Shown here piece after piece: positions 30,032-52,795 of a stretch of DNA of 64,000 bases. The position numbers were made by a program, and so were the translations under genes. Each line of letters begins with the position of its first letter. Within the stretch, counting starts at the first letter, position 1. Location of the stretch: the NCBI RefSeq assembly GCF_007896895.1, contig NZ_VOGW01000187.1, positions 114,590 to 178,589 of the forward strand. Reading direction: 5' to 3'. The notes below the pieces were generated by a model. The model ran no database searches, was not told the DNA's origin, and saw nothing but the letters and a program-made list of their open reading frames with translations. Source of the stretch: Streptomyces misionensis (GTDB taxonomy: Bacteria; Actinomycetota; Actinomycetes; Streptomycetales; Streptomycetaceae).

Positions 30032-30126
30032 GGAGAGGTGCCCGGAGTGGTTGATCGGGGACCGGCGAGCACGCCTCGGGGTCGGATCCGCAAGGGTCCA
30101 CGCAGGTTCGAATCCTGCCCTCTCCG
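30032..30126 (+). tRNA. tRNA-Ser-like sequence, probably a non-functional relic
   Basis: Acceptor arms GGAGAGG (30032-30038) and CCTCTCC (30119-30125) pair perfectly; the T arm GCAGG-TTCGAAT-CCTGC (30102-30118) is perfect; a 5-bp variable arm GGATC/GGTCC fits a class II tRNA; the D arm has CCC/GGG with one extra base. The anticodon region (30061-30083) does not fold into a 5+7 arm: it forms GGCG-AGCA-CGCC instead and lacks U33. It is either a tRNA pseudogene or an integration-site relic. The 3' end lacks an encoded CCA (GCA follows). Confidence 0.5.
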
Positions 30127-30370
30127 CAGATCCGTCATGCGCGGGACCTGCGCACCGTGGCGACGCGTCGCCACCGTGCGCCGCCGCGGGACGCCGCCGC
30201 GGGACCCGGGGGTCGGTGCCGCCCGTCCGGGTGGAACCGGACGGCCGCCGGCCGTCGAAGAGTGGCGCGGACTCCTGAAGGTCGTTCGGTCGCCGCAGGT
30301 CACGGCGTAGCCGCCGGTCTCCCGACGGTCGATGTCAGGCCGGCTCCTCGCCCACATCGCGAGACGCTTC

Positions 30371-42815: not shown

Positions 42816-44210
42816 ATGAGGGATGGAACGCGGCTCGCCGAGCCGGTCTCGGCGGACCTGGGCGACGGAAGCGTGCTGGCGGCGTGGGAGCGGTTCGTCC
42901 AGGGCGACGACCAGGTCCTGGGGGTCCGGCCCCTGGTGGCGATCTCCTGGCACCGCTGCCGGGAGCAGTACCGGGTCGATCCGCACCTCACCGAGGCGCC
43001 GGTGGCCGTCGCGGAGGCCGGTCATCCGCCCGAGCACGACGTCGTCTTCACCGAGCTGGGGTTCCGTGCCGCCACGGTGGCGCACGAGGTGGGCGGCGTC
43101 GGCGGCGTCGTCACCGTCACCGACGCCGCCGGCCGGATCCTGGCCGAATGGGGTGACCAGGCCACCCTCGCCAGGGCGTACGACTCCCGGCTGGCCCCCT
43201 GGTTCTGCTGGTCCGAGTCCGCGGCCGGCACGAACGGCATGGGCACCGCGCTGGAGGCGCACGGCCCGGTGCCGATCCGCGGCCCGGAGCACTGGTGCCG
43301 GGCGTTCCACGACTGGTGCTGCGCGGGCATCGCGGTGCGGGACGTGGTGAACAGGGAGCCGATCGCGGTCCTGGGCCTGTGCTGCTGGCGCGGCCGGCTC
43401 CCCGCGTCCGCGGAGAGCTGGCTGGCGCACGCGGCCGCCCTGGCCCAGTACCCGCTGCGCCGGCGCGCCCGGGCCAGCGGCGCCGAGCTGGTCGCGGCCT
43501 ACGCCCGGACGAGGTCCCGCTCCGGTGCGCCGCTCGCCGCGGTGGACACGGCGGGCAAGGTGGTGATCGCCGACGAGCTGGCGAGCGCGCTGCTGGGCGT
43601 TCCGGCGTCCACCCCCGCGGTCGACCCGACGCTGCGCTGGAACCCGGGGCTGCCGGAGTTCATCGCGGCCTCCCGGTACGCCACCGGGCAGGCGGCCCAC
43701 GACCCCGGCTGGGTGGGTTCGACGCAGATCACCGGCCACCCCTGCGCGGAGCCGACGTCCATCAGCATCCGGCCCGTCTTCTCCAGCGGGCACCTGATCG
43801 GAAGCCTGGTCTCGTTCGGCGCCCTCGACGGGGAGCCGGTGCCCCGCGCCCAGGTGCCCGCGCACCCCGCGCGGCCGCCGCGCCGGCTGGTCGCCGTGCG
43901 GGGCAACCGGATGGTGCTGCTGGGCCTCGCGGAGGTCTCCTTCGCCGAGTCGCGGGGGAACGACGTGTGGCTCCGCACGGATCAGGGGTGGCTGCGGGCC
44001 GCCGCCACGAGTCTCGACAAGCTCGACGGCGAGCTGGCGGGTTCCGGATTCCTCCGGGTGCACCGCCGGTACGTCGTCAACCTCGGCCGGGTCCGGGAGA
44101 TCGAGCGCGGGTCCAAGGGCGAGCTGTCCCTCGTCATGGACCGGGCGCGGGAGACGCTGCCGGTCTCCCGGCGGAACGCGGCCGCCGTACGCCGCGCGCT
44201 GGGCGTCTGA
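42816..44210 (+). CDS. GAF-domain sensor regulator with LytTR DNA-binding domain
   Basis: 464 residues. The N-terminus (LGVRPLVAISWHRCREQY) matches the AcoR/DhaR-type sensor region, and the GAF domain shows SAAGTNGMGTALEAHGPVP and FHDWCCAGIAVRD. The C-terminal about 100 residues are a LytTR domain: EVSFAESRGNDVWLRT, LDGELAGSGFLRVHRRYVVN, REIERGSKGELSL. AcoR-like GAF domains often sense alcohols, ketones or acetoin, but they normally join sigma-54 modules, so the LytTR output is unusual. It precedes katG by 48 bp, and the PQQ alcohol dehydrogenase cluster follows, which suggests control of both. The likely regulon is inference. Confidence 0.85.
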   Translation: MRDGTRLAEPVSADLGDGSVLAAWERFVQGDDQVLGVRPLVAISWHRCREQYRVDPHLTEAPVAVAEAGHPPEHDVVFTELGFRAATVAHEVGGVGGVVTVTDAAGRILAEWGDQATLARAYDSRLAPWFCWSESAAGTNGMGTALEAHGPVPIRGPEHWCRAFHDWCCAGIAVRDVVNREPIAVLGLCCWRGRLPASAESWLAHAAALAQYPLRRRARASGAELVAAYARTRSRSGAPLAAVDTAGKVVIADELASALLGVPASTPAVDPTLRWNPGLPEFIAASRYATGQAAHDPGWVGSTQITGHPCAEPTSISIRPVFSSGHLIGSLVSFGALDGEPVPRAQVPAHPARPPRRLVAVRGNRMVLLGLAEVSFAESRGNDVWLRTDQGWLRAAATSLDKLDGELAGSGFLRVHRRYVVNLGRVREIERGSKGELSLVMDRARETLPVSRRNAAAVRRALGV

Positions 44211-46529
<2,319 letters not shown>

Positions 46530-46797: not shown

Positions 46798-47259
46798 ATG
46801 ACGACCACGCGGGAACGCACCGACCTGCTGGACCAGATCGGGTTGAACGCGCAGAACAAGGCGGCGCTGGGACAGGTGTTGGGCACCGGGACCATTGGCC
46901 GGGCCACCGAGGAACCGGACGGCCGCATGCGGGCCACCATCCGCATCCACCCGGACGAGCTTTCCTGGGACCCCTCCATTCTGGTCATGCCGCACGGCGG
47001 CGATATCGAGCTGGAACTGGTCAACGACGACCGGAACACCCACTGTGCGCTGCTGCCGAGCAACGGCGACCGGAAATTCATCTGGCTGGTGAACCATTCG
47101 CGCGGACGGGCACACCTGAATCTCGACGGACCGGGCTATTACTGGTTCGGTTCCCCCACGGGGAACGACGAGGGCCGGGGGCTGACCGGGGCCATCGTCG
47201 TACTGGGGGACGCCCCGCCGGAGGCCCGCCTCGACCGTCCCGCACAGCCGCGACCGTAA
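46798..47259 (+). CDS. MSMEG_3727-type PQQ-associated cupredoxin-like protein
   Basis: 153 residues from an ATG preceded by GGAGAG. It matches the actinobacterial PQQ-associated family typified by MSMEG_3727, always next to a PQQ alcohol dehydrogenase. The cupredoxin-like domain runs from about residue 45 (IRIHPDELSWDPS) to GAIVVLGDA. The copper-loop region reads GPGYYWFGSPTGNDEGRGLTG in part, where blue copper proteins have Cys, His and Met ligands; these are missing, so it probably does not carry type-1 copper. There is no signal peptide. The next gene starts 21 bp on, so they form one operon. Role unproven; a chaperone or electron-transfer partner is likely. Confidence 0.82.
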   Translation: MTTTRERTDLLDQIGLNAQNKAALGQVLGTGTIGRATEEPDGRMRATIRIHPDELSWDPSILVMPHGGDIELELVNDDRNTHCALLPSNGDRKFIWLVNHSRGRAHLNLDGPGYYWFGSPTGNDEGRGLTGAIVVLGDAPPEARLDRPAQPRP

Positions 47260-47280: not shown

Positions 47281-48984
47281 ATGACCACCGTCGACTACGT
47301 GGACGCGGGCGAGGCCGTCGACCAGGGCAACCTGAGCGGCAAGGTGGCGGGTGGCGAGGTCGCACCGCCGGTGACGGCCGGCATCGACTACGAACGCATC
47401 CTCCACGCCCGTGAGGAACCCCAGAACTGGCTCACCTACTACGGCGCCTACGACGGTCAGCGCTACAGCCCGCTGGACCAGATCAACACCGAGAACGTCA
47501 AGCGCCTCGTTCCCGCGTGGGTCTTCCAGGCCGGCACGACCGGGCTGATCGCCGGCGCGTCGACGTACTCGTTCGAGGCCGCCCCGATCGTCGTGGACGG
47601 AATCATGTTCCTGTCCGGCTGGGACGGCTGGGTGTGGGCCCTCGACGCGAAGACCGGCGTGGAGATCTGGCGGTACAAGCACGCCGTGCCCTTCGATGTG
47701 TCCCTGTGCTGCGGCAACGTGAACCGCGGGGTCGCGGTCGCCCAGGGGAAGGTCTTCTTCGTCACGGCGAACGCGCGGATGCTCGCGCTCGACGCCCGGA
47801 CCGGCAAACGGGTGTGGGACCGCACCTACGGCGACGTCCGGGCCGGGGAGAGCGCCACGGTCGCCCCGCTGATCGTGAAGAACATGGTGATCGTGGGCAG
47901 TTCGGGCGGCGAGTTCGGCGTGCGCGGGCACCTCGACGCGTTCGACCTCGAGAGCGGCGAACACCAGTGGCGCTGCTACACCGTGCCGAAGCCCGGGGAG
48001 CCCGGCGCCGAGACCTGGCCGGCCGACGGCGAGGCATGGGCGCGCGGCGGGGCGAACTGCTGGCTCACCGGCACCTTCGACCCGGAGACGAACCTGCTGT
48101 ACGTCGGCACCGGCAACCCGGCGCCCGACTTCGACGGAGAGGTCCGCGAGGGCGACAACCTCTTCACGGACTGCATCATCGCCGTCGACGTGGACAGCGG
48201 CCGCATCCGCTGGCACTACCAGTGCACCCCGCACGACCTGTGGGACTACGACAGCATCGGCGAGTGCATCCTGTTCGAGCAGGACGGGCGCAAACTGCTG
48301 GGCCACTTCGACAAGAACGGCTACTTCTTCGTGCTCGACCGCACGAACGGCGAGCGGGTCGGGATCACGCCCTTCGTGGACCGCATCACCTGGGGCGCGA
48401 TCACACGGGACGGCCAGGTGACGGCCAAGCTCTACCCCGACAAGGAGGGCGAGCCGGTCCACTTCTACCCGGGTCCGGCCGGCGCCAAGGAGTGGACGCA
48501 CGCGGCCTACAGCCCCAAGACCGGGCTGTTCTACGTCCCGGTCCAGGACACGGGCGCCACGGCGACCCGGCGGCGCCGGGAGTTCAAGGAGTCCATCCCG
48601 TACTGGGGCGCGGGCGTTCAGGTGGACATCGAGGACATGGCGGGATCCGTGAGCGCGTTCGACGCGAACGGCGAGGAGAAATGGCGCTGGCGCAACGAAC
48701 TGCCCATGTGCGCCTCGGTGCTGGCCACCGGAGGCGACCTGGTGTTCGCCGGTGAGCCGTCCGGCGAGTTCGACGCGTTCGACGCCCGCACCGGGGAGCT
48801 GCTGTGGCAGTTCCAGTGCGGCAGCGGCCACCACAGCAGCCCGACCACCTACATGGTCGACGGCAGGCAGTACGTCGCCGTGCCGGTCGGCTGGGGCGGC
48901 TGGGCCGAGGGGTTCCTGCCCGGCATGCTCGGCGCGGGCCACGGCAGCGCCCTGATGGTCTTCGCCCTTCCGGAACCGGTCTAG
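47281..48984 (+). CDS. PQQ-dependent alcohol dehydrogenase with lanthanide-type (DYD) active site
   Basis: 567 residues, eight-bladed propeller quinoprotein of the methanol/ethanol dehydrogenase type. PQQ-site features: vicinal cysteines 143-144 in SLCCGN, Glu211 in SSGGEFGV, Asn279 in GTGNPAPDF, and catalytic Asp322 in TPHDLWDYDS. The residue two after the catalytic Asp is Asp324; this Asp-Tyr-Asp pattern is the recognised mark of lanthanide-dependent XoxF/PedH-like enzymes, whereas calcium enzymes such as MxaF have Ala there. No signal peptide is visible, odd for an enzyme class that normally works outside the cytoplasmic membrane. No cytochrome gene is nearby. Confidence 0.92.
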   Translation: MTTVDYVDAGEAVDQGNLSGKVAGGEVAPPVTAGIDYERILHAREEPQNWLTYYGAYDGQRYSPLDQINTENVKRLVPAWVFQAGTTGLIAGASTYSFEAAPIVVDGIMFLSGWDGWVWALDAKTGVEIWRYKHAVPFDVSLCCGNVNRGVAVAQGKVFFVTANARMLALDARTGKRVWDRTYGDVRAGESATVAPLIVKNMVIVGSSGGEFGVRGHLDAFDLESGEHQWRCYTVPKPGEPGAETWPADGEAWARGGANCWLTGTFDPETNLLYVGTGNPAPDFDGEVREGDNLFTDCIIAVDVDSGRIRWHYQCTPHDLWDYDSIGECILFEQDGRKLLGHFDKNGYFFVLDRTNGERVGITPFVDRITWGAITRDGQVTAKLYPDKEGEPVHFYPGPAGAKEWTHAAYSPKTGLFYVPVQDTGATATRRRREFKESIPYWGAGVQVDIEDMAGSVSAFDANGEEKWRWRNELPMCASVLATGGDLVFAGEPSGEFDAFDARTGELLWQFQCGSGHHSSPTTYMVDGRQYVAVPVGWGGWAEGFLPGMLGAGHGSALMVFALPEPV

Positions 48985-49031: not shown

Positions 49032-49127
49032 ATGGAGTGCGAGCTCGCTGTGTGGGAGACACCCGACTTCGACGAGATCGTGGTCGCGGCCGAGGTGACC
49101 ATGTACCTCGCCCGGCTGGAGGAGTAG
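49032..49127 (+). CDS. pqqA: PQQ precursor peptide PqqA
   Basis: 31 residues. The conserved pattern WETPDFDEI...E-V-T-M-Y is present, with the Glu and Tyr that PqqE cross-links to form PQQ. An AGGAGG-like site (GAGAGGAGG) precedes the ATG. It lies between the dehydrogenase and pqqB, on the same strand. Confidence 0.93.
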   Translation: MECELAVWETPDFDEIVVAAEVTMYLARLEE

Positions 49128-49209: not shown

Positions 49210-50097
49210 GTGTTGCTGCGGGTACTGGGCTCGGCGGCGGGGGGCGGCTCCCCGCAGTGGAACTGCGGCTGCCCGGTGTGCGCCGCGGTGCGCTCCGGGG
49301 CCGGTCCCCCGCGCACCCAGTCGTCGGTCGCGGTGAGCGCCGACGGCCGCCGGTGGTTCCTGCTCAACGCCTCGCCCGACGTGCGCGCCCAGATCGAGGA
49401 GTTCCCCGCGCTGCGTCCGCACGACGGCCGGACGACGCCCCTGGAGGCGGTGCTGGTCACCGACGCCGAACTGGACCACACGCTCGGCCTGCTGCTGCTG
49501 CGCGAGGCGCGCGCCCTGCGGCTGTACGCCACGCCCGCCGTGCACAAGGTCCTGTGGGACGGCACCGGGGTCCTGCGGACGCTGGAGCGCTACTGCCCGG
49601 TGGAGTGGCGCGCGGTGCTGCCCGGCGCCGATCTCGCCCTGGCGGACGGGCTGTCCTGCCGGGCGTTCGACGTCCCCACCACCAAGCGCGCCCGGTTCGG
49701 GGCGAGGGCCGACCACGGGCGGGTGGTGGGCTACCGGCTCACCGACGAGCGCGGCGGCGGGACGCTGGTGTACCTGCCGGGCGTACAGGCGCTGACGCGG
49801 GCGCTGCGCCGGGAGATCGAGGGCTGCGGCTGTCTGCTGGTCGACGGGACCTGCTGGCGCGACGACGAACTCCTGCGGCTCGGGCTCGCCGGCAAGACGT
49901 CCCGGGAGATGGGCCACCTGCCCATGGACGGCCCCGACGGCAGCCTGGCGCTGCTCTCGCCGCTGGGCGTGGGCCGGGTGGTGTTCCTGCACATGAACAA
50001 CACCAATCCGGTCCTCCTCGACGGCACGCCCGAGCGGCGTACCGTGGAGGAGTACGGCATGGAGGTTGCCATGGACGGCCTTGAGGTCCGGGTGTAG
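49210..50097 (+). CDS. pqqB: PQQ biosynthesis protein PqqB
   Basis: 295 residues, metallo-beta-lactamase-fold hydroxylase that acts on the PQQ precursor. N-terminus [20 protein letters not shown] and CPVCAAVR carry the family's zinc-binding cysteines; [14 protein letters not shown] corresponds to the degenerate metal motif (HxHxDH is DxxxDH-like here), and [11 protein letters not shown] is the conserved end. GTG start preceded by GAGGGAGGTGGCGAC. Near-normal length. Confidence 0.95.
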
Positions 50098-50101
50098 TGC
50101 C

Positions 50102-50803
50102 GTGACGGCGACAGCGACGGCGGTGACGGACGAGGGCGGTTTCGTCGAGGCGTTGCGAGCCCACTCGCGGCGGTACCACGACCAGCATCCGTTCCACGTC
50201 CGGATGAACGCCGGCGAGCTGAGCCGCCGGCAGATCCGGGGCTGGGTGGCCAACCGCTTCTACTACCAGGAGAACATCCCCCGCAAGGACGCCGCGATCC
50301 TGTCCAACTGCCCCGACCCGGAGGTCCGCCGGCGCTGGATCCGGCGGATCCTGGACCATGACGGCACCGCCGCCGGCGAGGGCGGTATCGAGGCGTGGCT
50401 GCGGCTCGCCGAGGCCGCCGGGCTGACCCGTGCGGAGGTGCTGGACCACCGGCATCTGGTGCCCGGGGTGCGGTTCGCCGTCGACGCGTACGTGAACTTC
50501 GCCCGGACCCGGCCGTGGGTGGAGGCGGTGGCCTCCTCGCTCACGGAGATGTTCGCGCCGGATCTGATGGCGGCGCGGCTGGCCGGGTTCGAGCGGTGGT
50601 ACCCGTGGATCGCGCCCGAGGGCCTCGCCTACTTCCGGGCCCGGCTGGAGCAGGCTCCCCGGGACTGCGAGCACGCGCTGGAGGTGGTCACCGCGCACTG
50701 CGTCTCCGCCGAGTCCCGGGCGCGCGCCGTCGACGCGCTGTCGTTCAAGTGCGACGTCCTGTGGAGCCTGATGGACGCCGTCGACCAGGCCTATCCGGAG
50801 TGA
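50102..50803 (+). CDS. pqqC: PQQ synthase PqqC
   Basis: 233 residues, cofactorless oxidase that closes the ring and oxidises the intermediate to PQQ. Family marks: [18 protein letters not shown] in part, [19 protein letters not shown] in part, RILDHDG, and [14 protein letters not shown]. The GTG is four bases after the pqqB stop, indicating coupling. Active-site His and Tyr residues appear conserved. Confidence 0.95.
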
Positions 50804-50807
50804 GATC

Positions 50808-51122
50808 ATGGACCCGACCCCCCTCACCAGGACCCGGCCGAGCACCGCCGAGGTGTCCGGCACGGACCGGCCCAGGCCGGCGCGCCACGTGAGGCTGGAC
50901 TACTCCCGCACCAGGCAGCGCCGGATCCTGCTGCACCCCGAGGCGGTGGTGGTGCTCAACGGAACCGGCGCCGCCATCCTCGAACTGTGCGACGGGCGGC
51001 ACACCGTGGCCGAGATCGTGAGCGAACTGGGCACGCGCTACCGGGGCGTGCCCGAGGAGGAGGTACGGCGGTTCGTGGGGCGGCTCGTCGCCCGGCGCTG
51101 GCTGGAGCTGTCCGATGGATAG
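50808..51122 (+). CDS. pqqD: PqqD, peptide chaperone for PQQ synthesis
   Basis: 104 residues, of which the first 28 are a Pro/Thr-rich extension and the rest the RRE winged fold (HVRLDYSRTRQRRILLHPEA in part, then LCDGRHTVAEIVSEL and FVGRLVARRWLEL). PqqD holds PqqA and presents it to PqqE. Its end overlaps the pqqE start by 8 bp, so the two are coupled. Confidence 0.94.
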   Translation: MDPTPLTRTRPSTAEVSGTDRPRPARHVRLDYSRTRQRRILLHPEAVVVLNGTGAAILELCDGRHTVAEIVSELGTRYRGVPEEEVRRFVGRLVARRWLELSDG

Positions 51123-52227
51123 CCCGTTCGGGCTGCTCGCCGAGCTGACCTACCGCTGCCCGCTGGCCTGCCCGTACTGCTCCAACCCGCTGAACCTGGC
51201 CGACTACGGCGACGAGTTGACGACGGGCGACTGGATGCGGGTGCTGACCGAGGCGGGCGATCTCGGCGTGCTGCAGTGCCATCTGTCCGGCGGGGAGCCG
51301 CTGCTGCGGCGGGACCTGGTGGAGATCGTGGCGCACGCCCATCTGCTGGGCCTCTACACCAATCTGATCACCAGCGCGGTCGGGTTCTCCCGTCCGCGGG
51401 CGGAGCTGCTGCGCACCGCGGGTCTGGACCATGTGCAGATCAGCATCCAGGCCGACGAGCCGGCCCGGTCCGACCGGATCGCCGGGGTGCCGTCCTTCCG
51501 GCGCAAGGTCGAGGCGATGGGGCTGGTCAAGGAGCTGGGCTGGCCGCTCACCATGAACGTGGTGCTGCACCGGTACAACATCGGCCATGTCGCCGAGGTG
51601 CTCGCGCTGGCCGAGGAGGTGGGCGCGGACCGGGTGGAGCTGGCCAACACCCAGTACTACGGCTGGGCCTGGCGCAACCGTGCCGCGCTGCTGCCGAGCC
51701 GGGCGCAGCTCGCGGCGGCCGAGGAGGTCGTACGGGCCGCGGTCGAACGGCTGCGGGACCGCATGGACATCGTCTACGTCATCCCCGACTACTACAGCCG
51801 CTATCCCAAGCCCTGCATGGGCGGCTGGGCCTCCCGGCAGCTGACCGTCACGCCGAACGGGGACGTCCTGCCCTGCCCGGCCGCGCAGTCCCTGCCGCTG
51901 CCGAGGGCCAGTGTGCGGGAGGAGCCGCTGGAGCGGATCTGGGCCGAGGCGCCGGTGATGACCGCGTTCCGGGGCACCGACTGGATGCCGGAGCCCTGCC
52001 GCGGTTGCCCCCGCCGGGAGGTGGACTTCGGCGGCTGCCGCTGCCAGGCCTTCCTGCTCACCGGCGACCCCGCCCGCACCGATCCGGTGTGCCATCTGTC
52101 GCCGGACCACGAGCTGGTCGAACGGGCGGTGACCGCCGCCAACTCCGAACGGCGGCCGCGGGGTTCGGCGCTGGTCCCACGCCCGCACCAGGCGAGGCGA
52201 CCGGTCGGACCGCGGCAGGTCCGTTGA
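51115..52227 (+). CDS. pqqE: Radical SAM PQQ synthase component PqqE
   Basis: 370 residues. The radical SAM cluster motif CPLACPYC (Cys-x3-Cys-x2-Cys) is near residue 15, GGEPLL follows, and the SPASM domain supplies extra cysteines (KPCMGGW, VLPCPAA, CRGCPRR, GGCRCQAF, VCHL). It joins the Glu and Tyr of PqqA. The gene completes an A-B-C-D-E set; no pqqF/G protease gene is here, so PqqA trimming must rely on another protease. Confidence 0.96.
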   Translation: MDSPFGLLAELTYRCPLACPYCSNPLNLADYGDELTTGDWMRVLTEAGDLGVLQCHLSGGEPLLRRDLVEIVAHAHLLGLYTNLITSAVGFSRPRAELLRTAGLDHVQISIQADEPARSDRIAGVPSFRRKVEAMGLVKELGWPLTMNVVLHRYNIGHVAEVLALAEEVGADRVELANTQYYGWAWRNRAALLPSRAQLAAAEEVVRAAVERLRDRMDIVYVIPDYYSRYPKPCMGGWASRQLTVTPNGDVLPCPAAQSLPLPRASVREEPLERIWAEAPVMTAFRGTDWMPEPCRGCPRREVDFGGCRCQAFLLTGDPARTDPVCHLSPDHELVERAVTAANSERRPRGSALVPRPHQARRPVGPRQVR

Positions 52228-52255: not shown

Positions 52256-52795
52256 TTAGCCACCGAACACCAACGGCAGTGCCACCGCGGCGGCGATCAG
52301 GGTGACGCCGCTGAGCAGGTCCGAGCGGATGTGGACGAGGCGGGCGGCGGCGCGGCCGAGGCGCAGGCCGAGCAGGGACATGGCGGCGGTGATGAGGCCG
52401 AAGGTGGCGGCCGACAGCCAGGGGGACAGTCCGAGGATGCCGAGGCTCGCCCCGGCGATCAGATTGTCCAGGCTCAGGGAGAGCGGGATGCCGAACAGCG
52501 CCCAGGGGTGGTCCAGTTCGTCCGGCTCGGGGTTTCGCAGGGACGTGATGACGAGGTAGAGGCCGTAGCCGCCGAGCGCGGCCGCGCCCACCACGTCGGC
52601 GACGGAGCCGATGGTCTCCCCGATCTCATGGCCGATCAGCAGCCCGACCAGGGGCATGATCGCGTCCCACAGGCCGAAGGTCAGCGCGACCTGCACCGCG
52701 CGCCGCAGACCGAAGGGGACGGTGCCGAGCGCGATCGATACCCGGAAATTGTCGAGACTGAGGACGAAACCCAGGCCCAGCATTTCCCAGACCAT
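52256..52795 (-). CDS. MntP-type metal (manganese) efflux pump
   Basis: 179 residues with six membrane helices in two related halves. Each half has the family's Asp-Asn motif, LSLDNFRVSIALG and LSLDNLIAGASLG. The usual role is Mn2+ export. It ends 28 bp from the convergent pqqE gene. Given the metal-dependent enzyme next door it may move another cation, but that is a guess. The ATG at 52795 gives a normal first helix. Confidence 0.82.
   Translation of the reverse strand: MVWEMLGLGFVLSLDNFRVSIALGTVPFGLRRAVQVALTFGLWDAIMPLVGLLIGHEIGETIGSVADVVGAAALGGYGLYLVITSLRNPEPDELDHPWALFGIPLSLSLDNLIAGASLGILGLSPWLSAATFGLITAAMSLLGLRLGRAAARLVHIRSDLLSGVTLIAAAVALPLVFGG

Follow-up and report, generated by a model that had tools for sequence, protein, structure and literature searches.

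A window of 64,000 nucleotides from Streptomyces misionensis (assembly GCF_007896895.1, contig NZ_VOGW01000187.1, here C96) carries a gene for an alcohol dehydrogenase dependent on pyrroloquinoline quinone (PQQ), which encodes 567 residues from an ATG start (47281..48984, + strand; positions count from the first letter of the window). The gene lies in a cassette with the order LytTR regulator, katG, MSMEG_3727-family partner, enzyme and pqqABCDE. The first-pass annotation, made from the sequence of the window, had read the enzyme as lanthanide-dependent and had remarked as odd that neither it nor its partner shows a signal peptide. The follow-up covered a clade set of 80 loci from Streptomyces, Pseudonocardia, Amycolatopsis, Geodermatophilus, Rubrobacter, Solirubrobacterales and others, a genus sample of 392 Streptomyces genomes and a phylum sample of 396 genomes. 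Recognisable export signals are lacking across this clade, and a cation-transporter gene, either MntP-like or Na/Ca-exchanger-like, belongs to the cassette, a link that is new here.

The enzyme and its metal site

The open reading frame (ORF) is present and full length, as first annotated, and it matches NCBIfam TIGR03075 (PQQ-dependent methanol/ethanol dehydrogenase) over residues 33-540 with 626.2 bits against a cut-off of 480.05. It encodes the sole clear PQQ alcohol dehydrogenase of the 8.3-Mb host genome, in which two other propeller matches are weak (27 and 25 bits), and its closest named relatives are Streptomyces proteins at 95% identity. The enzyme alignment comprised 64 of 81 sequences (the window and 63 of the 80 loci), hand-picked to thin close relatives. 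In it, the residues that had been singled out as the metal site, catalytic centre and vicinal cysteine pair, namely Glu211, Asn279, Asp322, Tyr323, Asp324 and Cys143-Cys144, were found with the numbering given and were invariant in 64/64 rows, and Trp261 was likewise invariant. Asp324 was kept without change across the clade at 74-95% overall identity.

The top sequence match of the enzyme in the PDB was the lanthanide-dependent PedH of Pseudomonas putida (6zcv, 6zcw; E 1.3e-117), which shares with it 41% identity over 521 residues, the extra Asp and the vicinal cysteines, and Asp324 aligned with this extra Asp (WDFDGVNE versus WDYDSIGE). At the same position, the calcium enzyme ExaA (1flg, WDFSGNNE) has Ser, and 1kv9 (WDFTATQQ) and 1kb0 (WDYTSTQP), both of which we take to be calcium enzymes, have Thr. 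Alignment with these four proteins thus brought nothing against the first reading of Asp324, which is common to the clade and six aligned exported proteobacterial relatives (motif WD(Y/F)DGVNE).

Supportively, PedH also ranked first in the comparison of the AlphaFold2 enzyme model (predicted local distance difference test score, pLDDT, 78.5) with known structures (6zcw, Z 43.6, root-mean-square deviation 2.4 Å over 521 residues, 41% identity), and was followed by XoxF and quinohemoproteins at Z 41-42. This fold ranking is weak if taken alone because the Z values lie within about 2 of each other. Two segments of the model, residues 139-142 and 280-284, which adjoin the cysteine pair and Asn279, have low confidence, and the model therefore supports the fold and not the fine geometry. 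XoxF (6dam, 4mae, 6oc5) shares the fold at Z about 41 with 36-37% identity, which is below that of PedH, and it was rejected as the closest relative since PedH comes first by both sequence and fold. In PMC5487730, PedE is described with a serine and PedH with an aspartate at the position in question, this aspartate is tied to lanthanides, and PedH was active with lanthanides only, showing no activity in the calcium assay. With PedH as the best match, the extra Asp aligned and this Asp linked to lanthanides in the PedH paper, the proposed lanthanide dependence of the enzyme appears well founded on sequence grounds, and its metal site, with an Asp two residues past the catalytic Asp in addition to the Glu and Asn ligands, is by its residues of the lanthanide type (PedH/XoxF kind).

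Export signals and the partner protein

The partner gene (46798..47259, + strand) lies directly 5′ of the enzyme gene on the same strand in 80/80 loci, where its match stops 13-170 bases short of the enzyme gene, and its product is a clear member of TIGR04339 (286.7 bits, cut-off 75) and PF23509 (272.2 bits, cut-off 27). Export of both proteins was assessed by N-terminal hydropathy (the maximum 10-residue mean Kyte-Doolittle value in the first 45 residues), a twin-Arg search, in-frame stops upstream of the start and comparison with exported relatives, among them 17 annotated plasmid-borne PQQ alcohol dehydrogenases as controls. By these tests, a signal peptide was found on neither protein in any of the 80 loci, as the annotation had noticed for the window. 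No other start codon lies between the ATG of the window enzyme and the in-frame stop 7 codons 5′ of it, and no hydrophobic stretch is present in the N-terminus MTTVDYVDAGEAVDQGNLSGKVAGG... (maximum 0.87). Across the 80 loci, the hydropathy maximum did not exceed 1.61 for the enzyme or 1.53 for the partner, and RR within the first 30 residues occurred in 0/80 enzymes and 2/80 partners. An in-frame stop was located 1-11 codons 5′ of the start in 27/90 enzyme genes and 2 codons 5′ of it in 22/91 partner genes, counts that exclude the window (L001) and L002, L003 and L084, which are not, or only partly, the enzyme gene. Stops so near the start leave too little room for a signal peptide, and a mis-called start as the cause of the missing signal was rejected on their account, in the window and in many relatives. 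The partner frame in the window remains open for 52 codons further 5′, to a TTG, and no stretch like this extension was seen in the relatives.

Among the controls, 15/17 plasmid-borne relatives reached a hydropathy of 1.81-2.86, and the two low ones (L104, 1.38; L128, 0.70) look like shortened annotated starts. Exported quinoproteins also occur within the phylum: four Streptomyces quinoprotein-like proteins (L118, L119, L120 and L151) have plain N-termini of the twin-arginine translocation (Tat) type such as MDRRSFLATAAAG, and two quinoproteins (L148 and L150) have lipoprotein-like N-termini. Furthermore, no signal was found on nine additional full-length enzyme genes from the phylum sample (L140-L147, L153), on nine enzyme genes from the genus sample (L108-L111, L113-L117) or in five Streptomyces stretches (L132-L136, of which L136 is the same gene as L108). 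By the tests used, no upstream start adds a signal sequence in the window or its relatives, and what had been noted as an oddity of one locus proved to be a stable trait of the whole clade, common to enzyme and partner. Enzymes of the PedH/XoxF type normally carry an export signal, whereas none was found on the clade enzymes in 80/80 loci.

The AlphaFold2 model of the partner (pLDDT 81.7) retrieved mostly cupredoxin domains with Foldseek and VIA-align. The best VIA-align rows were a copper-exporting ATPase metal-binding domain (Z 11.7) and the copper chaperone CupA (Z 10.9), the best cupredoxin alignment (Z 11.7) covering 96 residues, and a cupredoxin fold is predicted on this basis. Blue-copper cupredoxins carry a Cys-His-Met ligand loop before the last strand. 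The corresponding loop of the window partner, S119-P-T-G-N-D-E-G-R-G-L, holds no Cys, His or Met; S119 and G122-G126 are invariant in 61 rows (61 of 91 partner sequences, also hand-picked to thin close relatives), as are H82, C83, D77, D78 and D91. A role as a blue-copper electron carrier was dismissed since the copper ligand loop is missing, and the partner would instead be a subunit or a metal-handling protein that takes no part in copper electron transfer.

The family of the partner is already known and curated, as is its association with PQQ, which is part of the family name; the name conveys neither the predicted cupredoxin fold lacking a copper loop nor the missing export signal, and neither of these appears in the available part of PMC6529628, which names MSMEG_3727. 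There, MSMEG_3721-3727 of Mycobacterium smegmatis are described as putative PQQ biosynthesis genes and PQQ-dependent alcohol dehydrogenases, and PQQ-dependent reactions are argued not to substitute for mycofactocin when ethanol is the growth substrate under the conditions of that study; metal and location are not raised in that part of the paper. The M. smegmatis genes probably form a cassette of the same type.

The cassette and its linked transporters

The candidate metal transporter of the window is an MntP-like membrane protein whose gene (52256..52795, - strand) is convergent with pqqE. It scores 96.3 bits to PF02659 (cut-off 24.4) and 36.4 bits to the NCBIfam MntP equivalog (cut-off 214). 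Near the enzyme, an MntP-like gene was found in 43 of the 80 loci and a Na/Ca-exchanger-like gene in 16, so that 57/80 have one or the other. Two of the 16 are weak matches (L060, 28%; L080, 33%) and are absent from the 18-row motif alignment. The exchanger-like genes, too, score above the Pfam cut-off (PF01699) and below the NCBIfam equivalog cut-offs, and both groups have motifs of their own, S(L/V)DN twice in 39/43 MntP-like rows and FTG(V/I)EFDD in 18/18 exchanger-like rows. In six of the 23 loci with neither gene, the stretch ends less than 5 kb past the enzyme start. Both the place and the strand of the transporter gene vary. In Streptomyces it follows pqqE in convergent orientation, in Rubrobacter (L072) and Pseudonocardia dioxanivorans (L055) it follows pqqE on the same strand, in L081 it comes next after the enzyme gene, and in L057 it lies upstream of the partner gene.

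Among the 392 Streptomyces genomes, the enzyme scored above the cut-off in 19 and an MntP-like protein was present (E 1e-10) in 16, both sets being taken as the same 392 genomes from their equal number and handles. The MntP-like gene occurred in 15/19 enzyme-bearing versus 1/373 enzyme-less genomes (Fisher p 1.3e-22, a value inflated by the joint inheritance of neighbours). The remaining 4/4 enzyme-bearing genomes have an exchanger-like gene right after pqqE, so that 19/19 have one transporter or the other. That the gene order varies and that two unrelated transporter families replace each other speaks for a functional link. In the host genome, the only PF02659 gene is that of the cassette, and one frame with two PF01699 repeats lies elsewhere. 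An R2-like ferritin-family protein (PF00268), possibly a further metal protein of the cassette, adjoins the MntP-like gene in two Solirubrobacterales loci (L081:10601-11404 and L057).

The biosynthetic genes follow the enzyme on the + strand. pqqA (49032..49127; a precursor peptide of 31 residues, TIGR02107 33.9 bits, cut-off 20) precedes pqqB (49210..50097, TIGR02108 373.6 bits) and pqqC (50066..50803, TIGR02111 322.5 bits over residues 26-243), the true start of which probably lies some 20 codons into the ORF. pqqD (50808..51119, 103 residues) was named by its place between pqqC and pqqE and by its conservation, and pqqE (51115..52227) encodes a radical SAM/SPASM protein (TIGR02109 503.5 bits). 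By tblastn in the 80 loci, several of which are cut by contig ends, pqqA was found in 68/80, pqqB in 55/80, and pqqC, pqqD and pqqE in 63/80 each; the counts for katG and the regulator given below were obtained in the same way. In twelve loci (L018, L032, L038, L039, L051, L056, L058, L059, L061, L062, L063 and L081), pqqB-E were not found despite more than 7 kb 3′ of the enzyme; the genomes concerned may have PQQ genes at another site or may import PQQ.

Upstream of the partner, katG (44259..46529, + strand; GTG start as listed, uncertain) encodes a catalase-peroxidase (NF011635 1197.5 bits, cut-off 981) and was found in 59/80 loci, 55 of these upstream of the enzyme; the match in L042 is a weak fragment. 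The putative regulator gene (42816..44210, + strand) has a homologue in 63/80 loci, 11 of the 63 on the opposite strand. Its product couples a weakly DhaR-like N-terminal region (26.9 bits, residues 38-180) to a C-terminal LytTR DNA-binding domain (PF04397, 61 bits, residues 365-462), a pairing that seems unusual.

In the phylum sample, the partner scored above the cut-off in 11 genomes, and ten of these also have the enzyme, nine above the cut-off and one (G327) as two pieces on two contigs. The eleventh (G290) has a partial partner match only, at a contig end, and no enzyme match. A full-length clade-type enzyme without the partner was found in none of the 396 genomes. A possible exception is G167 (L152), in which a 60%-identical enzyme piece (residues 309-563, WDFDGNNE) carries one in-frame TGA and the partner gene is found neither in the stretch nor over the threshold in the genome. 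This piece is broken or partial and may come from a relative that is either defective or divergent and stands between the exported enzymes and the clade; it was left out of the tree. In the tree, in which L126 was left out and rooting served for drawing only, 18 clade rows grouped together (100/99), separate from the 16 plasmid relatives and 3 Tat-type proteins, and the clade is, on the present sequences, monophyletic and mostly actinobacterial. In Streptomyces G426 (L136), a stretch of 19 kb holds the same cassette parts in a different order. One member with its cassette (L080) lies on a contig of a metagenome-assembled genome labelled Bacillota and reflects either spread beyond actinobacteria or a mis-binned contig. 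A distinct quinoprotein-like family of about 716 residues occurs in 10/392 Streptomyces genomes (G740, G590, G161, G460 and others; 292-311 bits to TIGR03075); it is Tat-type in the four that were read (L118-L120, L151), and in L118 and L151 the metal-site motif is WDYDGVMS.

Recurring neighbours were counted within about 8 kb around the enzyme as families of ORFs of at least 100 residues present in at least 8 loci after an overlap filter, a count that misses small proteins and in which the clusters were identified by where they lie and how long they are. No XoxG or XoxJ family, the partners of XoxF methanol dehydrogenase, stood out within 8 kb of the enzyme in this count, which included no search by model. 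Three candidates were rejected as too sparse to be cassette parts, a membrane dipeptidase (9/80 loci, four at 27-30% identity), a DUF1232 protein (at most 10/80, some matches perhaps by chance) and a major facilitator superfamily transporter (12/80, some weak). The dipeptidase-like gene (peptidase M19; PF01244 in L064:4686-5867) is also present in L060, L068, L069, L070, L072, L076, L077 and L078; since no pqqF-type protease was seen in the operon, its product may trim the PqqA product. Elsewhere in the window, ARAGORN called a tRNA-like gene with a four-base anticodon (gcac) at 30032-30127 (+ strand), which is probably a false positive.

Cellular location, metal and electron acceptor

Taken together, these results point to a cytoplasmic, self-contained quinoprotein system of the lanthanide type, to which we give a probability of roughly one half (0.52). 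The enzyme would fold and work in the cytoplasm, where PqqABCDE would make PQQ, and the cassette would make it self-sufficient. Besides PQQ, the apo-enzyme would bind a metal ion, most likely a light lanthanide, by way of Glu211, Asn279, Asp322 and Asp324, and would oxidise an alcohol to the aldehyde with hydride transfer to PQQ. The cation transporter, MntP-like here and carboxylate-rich and Na/Ca-exchanger-like elsewhere, may set the intracellular level of the metal, the cupredoxin-fold partner, not of the blue-copper kind, may be an obligate subunit or a metal-handling protein, and KatG may remove peroxide. The presence of KatG suggests that peroxide is formed, either when electrons reach oxygen directly or by PqqC. 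Whereas the lack of recognisable export signals is observed across the clade, cytoplasmic residence is what we infer from it, and the lanthanide as the metal, the role of the partner, the electron acceptor and the substrate and direction of transport are likewise put forward as the most plausible assignments. The system would differ from the periplasmic PedH system in lacking a recognisable signal, in having a cupredoxin-fold partner and, mostly, in having its own pqqABCDE, and from XoxF, which is also periplasmic. By title and the opening of the abstract, no paper in the open-licence literature was found on a lanthanide-type or cytoplasmic actinobacterial PQQ alcohol dehydrogenase or on the transporter link, and an earlier mention is possible.

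Several observations weigh against a cytoplasmic system of this kind. The strongest among the sequence arguments is that Cys143-Cys144, which as a vicinal pair form a disulfide in exported relatives, are invariant although the cytosol is reducing. The four Tat-type proteins score 1.22-1.57 in hydropathy, inside the clade range (maximum 1.61); hydropathy alone therefore cannot exclude a Tat signal and was dropped as a sufficient export test, and it is the lack of a twin Arg, with the stops 5′ of the start, that carries the exclusion. The clade enzymes are rich in cysteine (median 8, range 4-12, n=80, versus median 2, range 2-6, n=17, in the plasmid relatives), which fits the cytoplasm; this was dropped as a main argument because the larger exported actinobacterial quinoproteins hold 5-7 Cys and four Streptomyces clade members (L132-L135) only 4. 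As to the cassette, katG is missing from 21/80 and pqqB-E from 16/80 stretches, some of them cut by contig ends, 17/80 loci have neither transporter although their stretches run on for over 9 kb past the enzyme start, and the co-occurrence of an adjacent gene can reflect joint transfer. Since members of the MntP and Na/Ca families are known chiefly as exporters, the transporter may expel metal instead of supplying it, and we know of no demonstrated way by which these bacteria take lanthanides into the cytoplasm. Finally, the cassette has no evident electron acceptor gene: no conserved cytochrome c acceptor stood out among the recurring neighbours within about 8 kb, where no targeted search was made.

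The electron acceptor could be oxygen itself, the enzyme then being an alcohol oxidase that passes electrons straight to oxygen, with the peroxide removed or used by KatG. This would be compatible with the cytoplasmic system and overlaps with it. That katG stands in 59/80 stretches, mostly upstream of the enzyme, would fit, as would the lack of a cytochrome c gene among the recurring neighbours in that untargeted count, unlike the surroundings of several exported relatives, where cytochrome c genes do occur. However, oxygen is a poor electron acceptor for such quinoproteins, the stretches from Rubrobacter, Geodermatophilus and Solirubrobacterales, some of which are short, contain no katG, and PqqC also makes peroxide, so that KatG may serve cofactor synthesis; direct oxidation by oxygen is conceivable and somewhat unlikely.

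A different metal is less probable still. The enzyme could be cytoplasmic and use Ca2+ or another divalent ion, with Asp324 as an ancestral leftover, and the Asp could indeed be inherited, as relatives with the same Asp surround the clade; several cassettes also hold a Na/Ca-exchanger-like gene. We consider this unlikely: Asp324 is invariant at 74-95% overall identity, and the acidic run FTGxEFDD of the exchanger-like proteins is unlike the calcium motif of such exchangers. PedH, with the same Asp, was inactive in the calcium assay and used lanthanides only (PMC5487730).

Alternatively, enzyme and partner could be exported without a recognisable signal, by a non-classical or piggyback route, and act outside the membrane. 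To our knowledge, all characterised relatives act outside the cytoplasmic membrane, and the retention of Cys143-Cys144 would suit such a location. PQQ alcohol dehydrogenases are also described as periplasmic systems in PMC5487730. Against this route, the tests found no signal on either protein in 80/80 loci, no obvious carrier was seen among the recurring flank genes (ORFs of at least 100 residues), and other actinobacterial quinoproteins carry Tat-type or lipoprotein-like signals, which together make signal-less export quite improbable. It is very improbable that the enzyme serves chiefly as a sensor of PQQ or lanthanide, or for storage, in concert with the LytTR regulator: the regulator gene stands in 63/80 loci and PedH, besides being an enzyme, is reported to take part in the regulation of transcription, where it most likely serves as a sensory module (PMC5487730), but binding alone would not require that the catalytic Asp322, the metal ligands and Trp261 be invariant.

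The preferred cytoplasmic system can be extended, more tentatively, to an intracellular lanthanide metabolism in actinobacteria, in which the transporter would import or balance the metal, the copper-less partner would hand it on, the cytoplasmic quinoprotein would use it and KatG would clear the peroxide. This wider proposal is doubtful at present; if true, it would mean that two unrelated transporter families are used interchangeably for a lanthanide, that a lanthanide enzyme works in the cytosol, and that a PQQ enzyme never leaves the compartment in which PQQ is synthesised. PQQ alcohol dehydrogenases and lanthanide enzymes are regarded as periplasmic, and in a survey of weathered granite (PMC10875860) XoxF was not detected in Gram-positive metagenome-assembled genomes, which was explained by its periplasmic site. 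A cytoplasmic clade would break this rule and, if true, would prompt one to ask how a cell can keep lanthanides inside it without harm. Actinomycetes respond to rare earths, and the cassette, which points to two transporter families and one partner family in cultivable soil actinomycetes, offers a concrete starting point for asking why.

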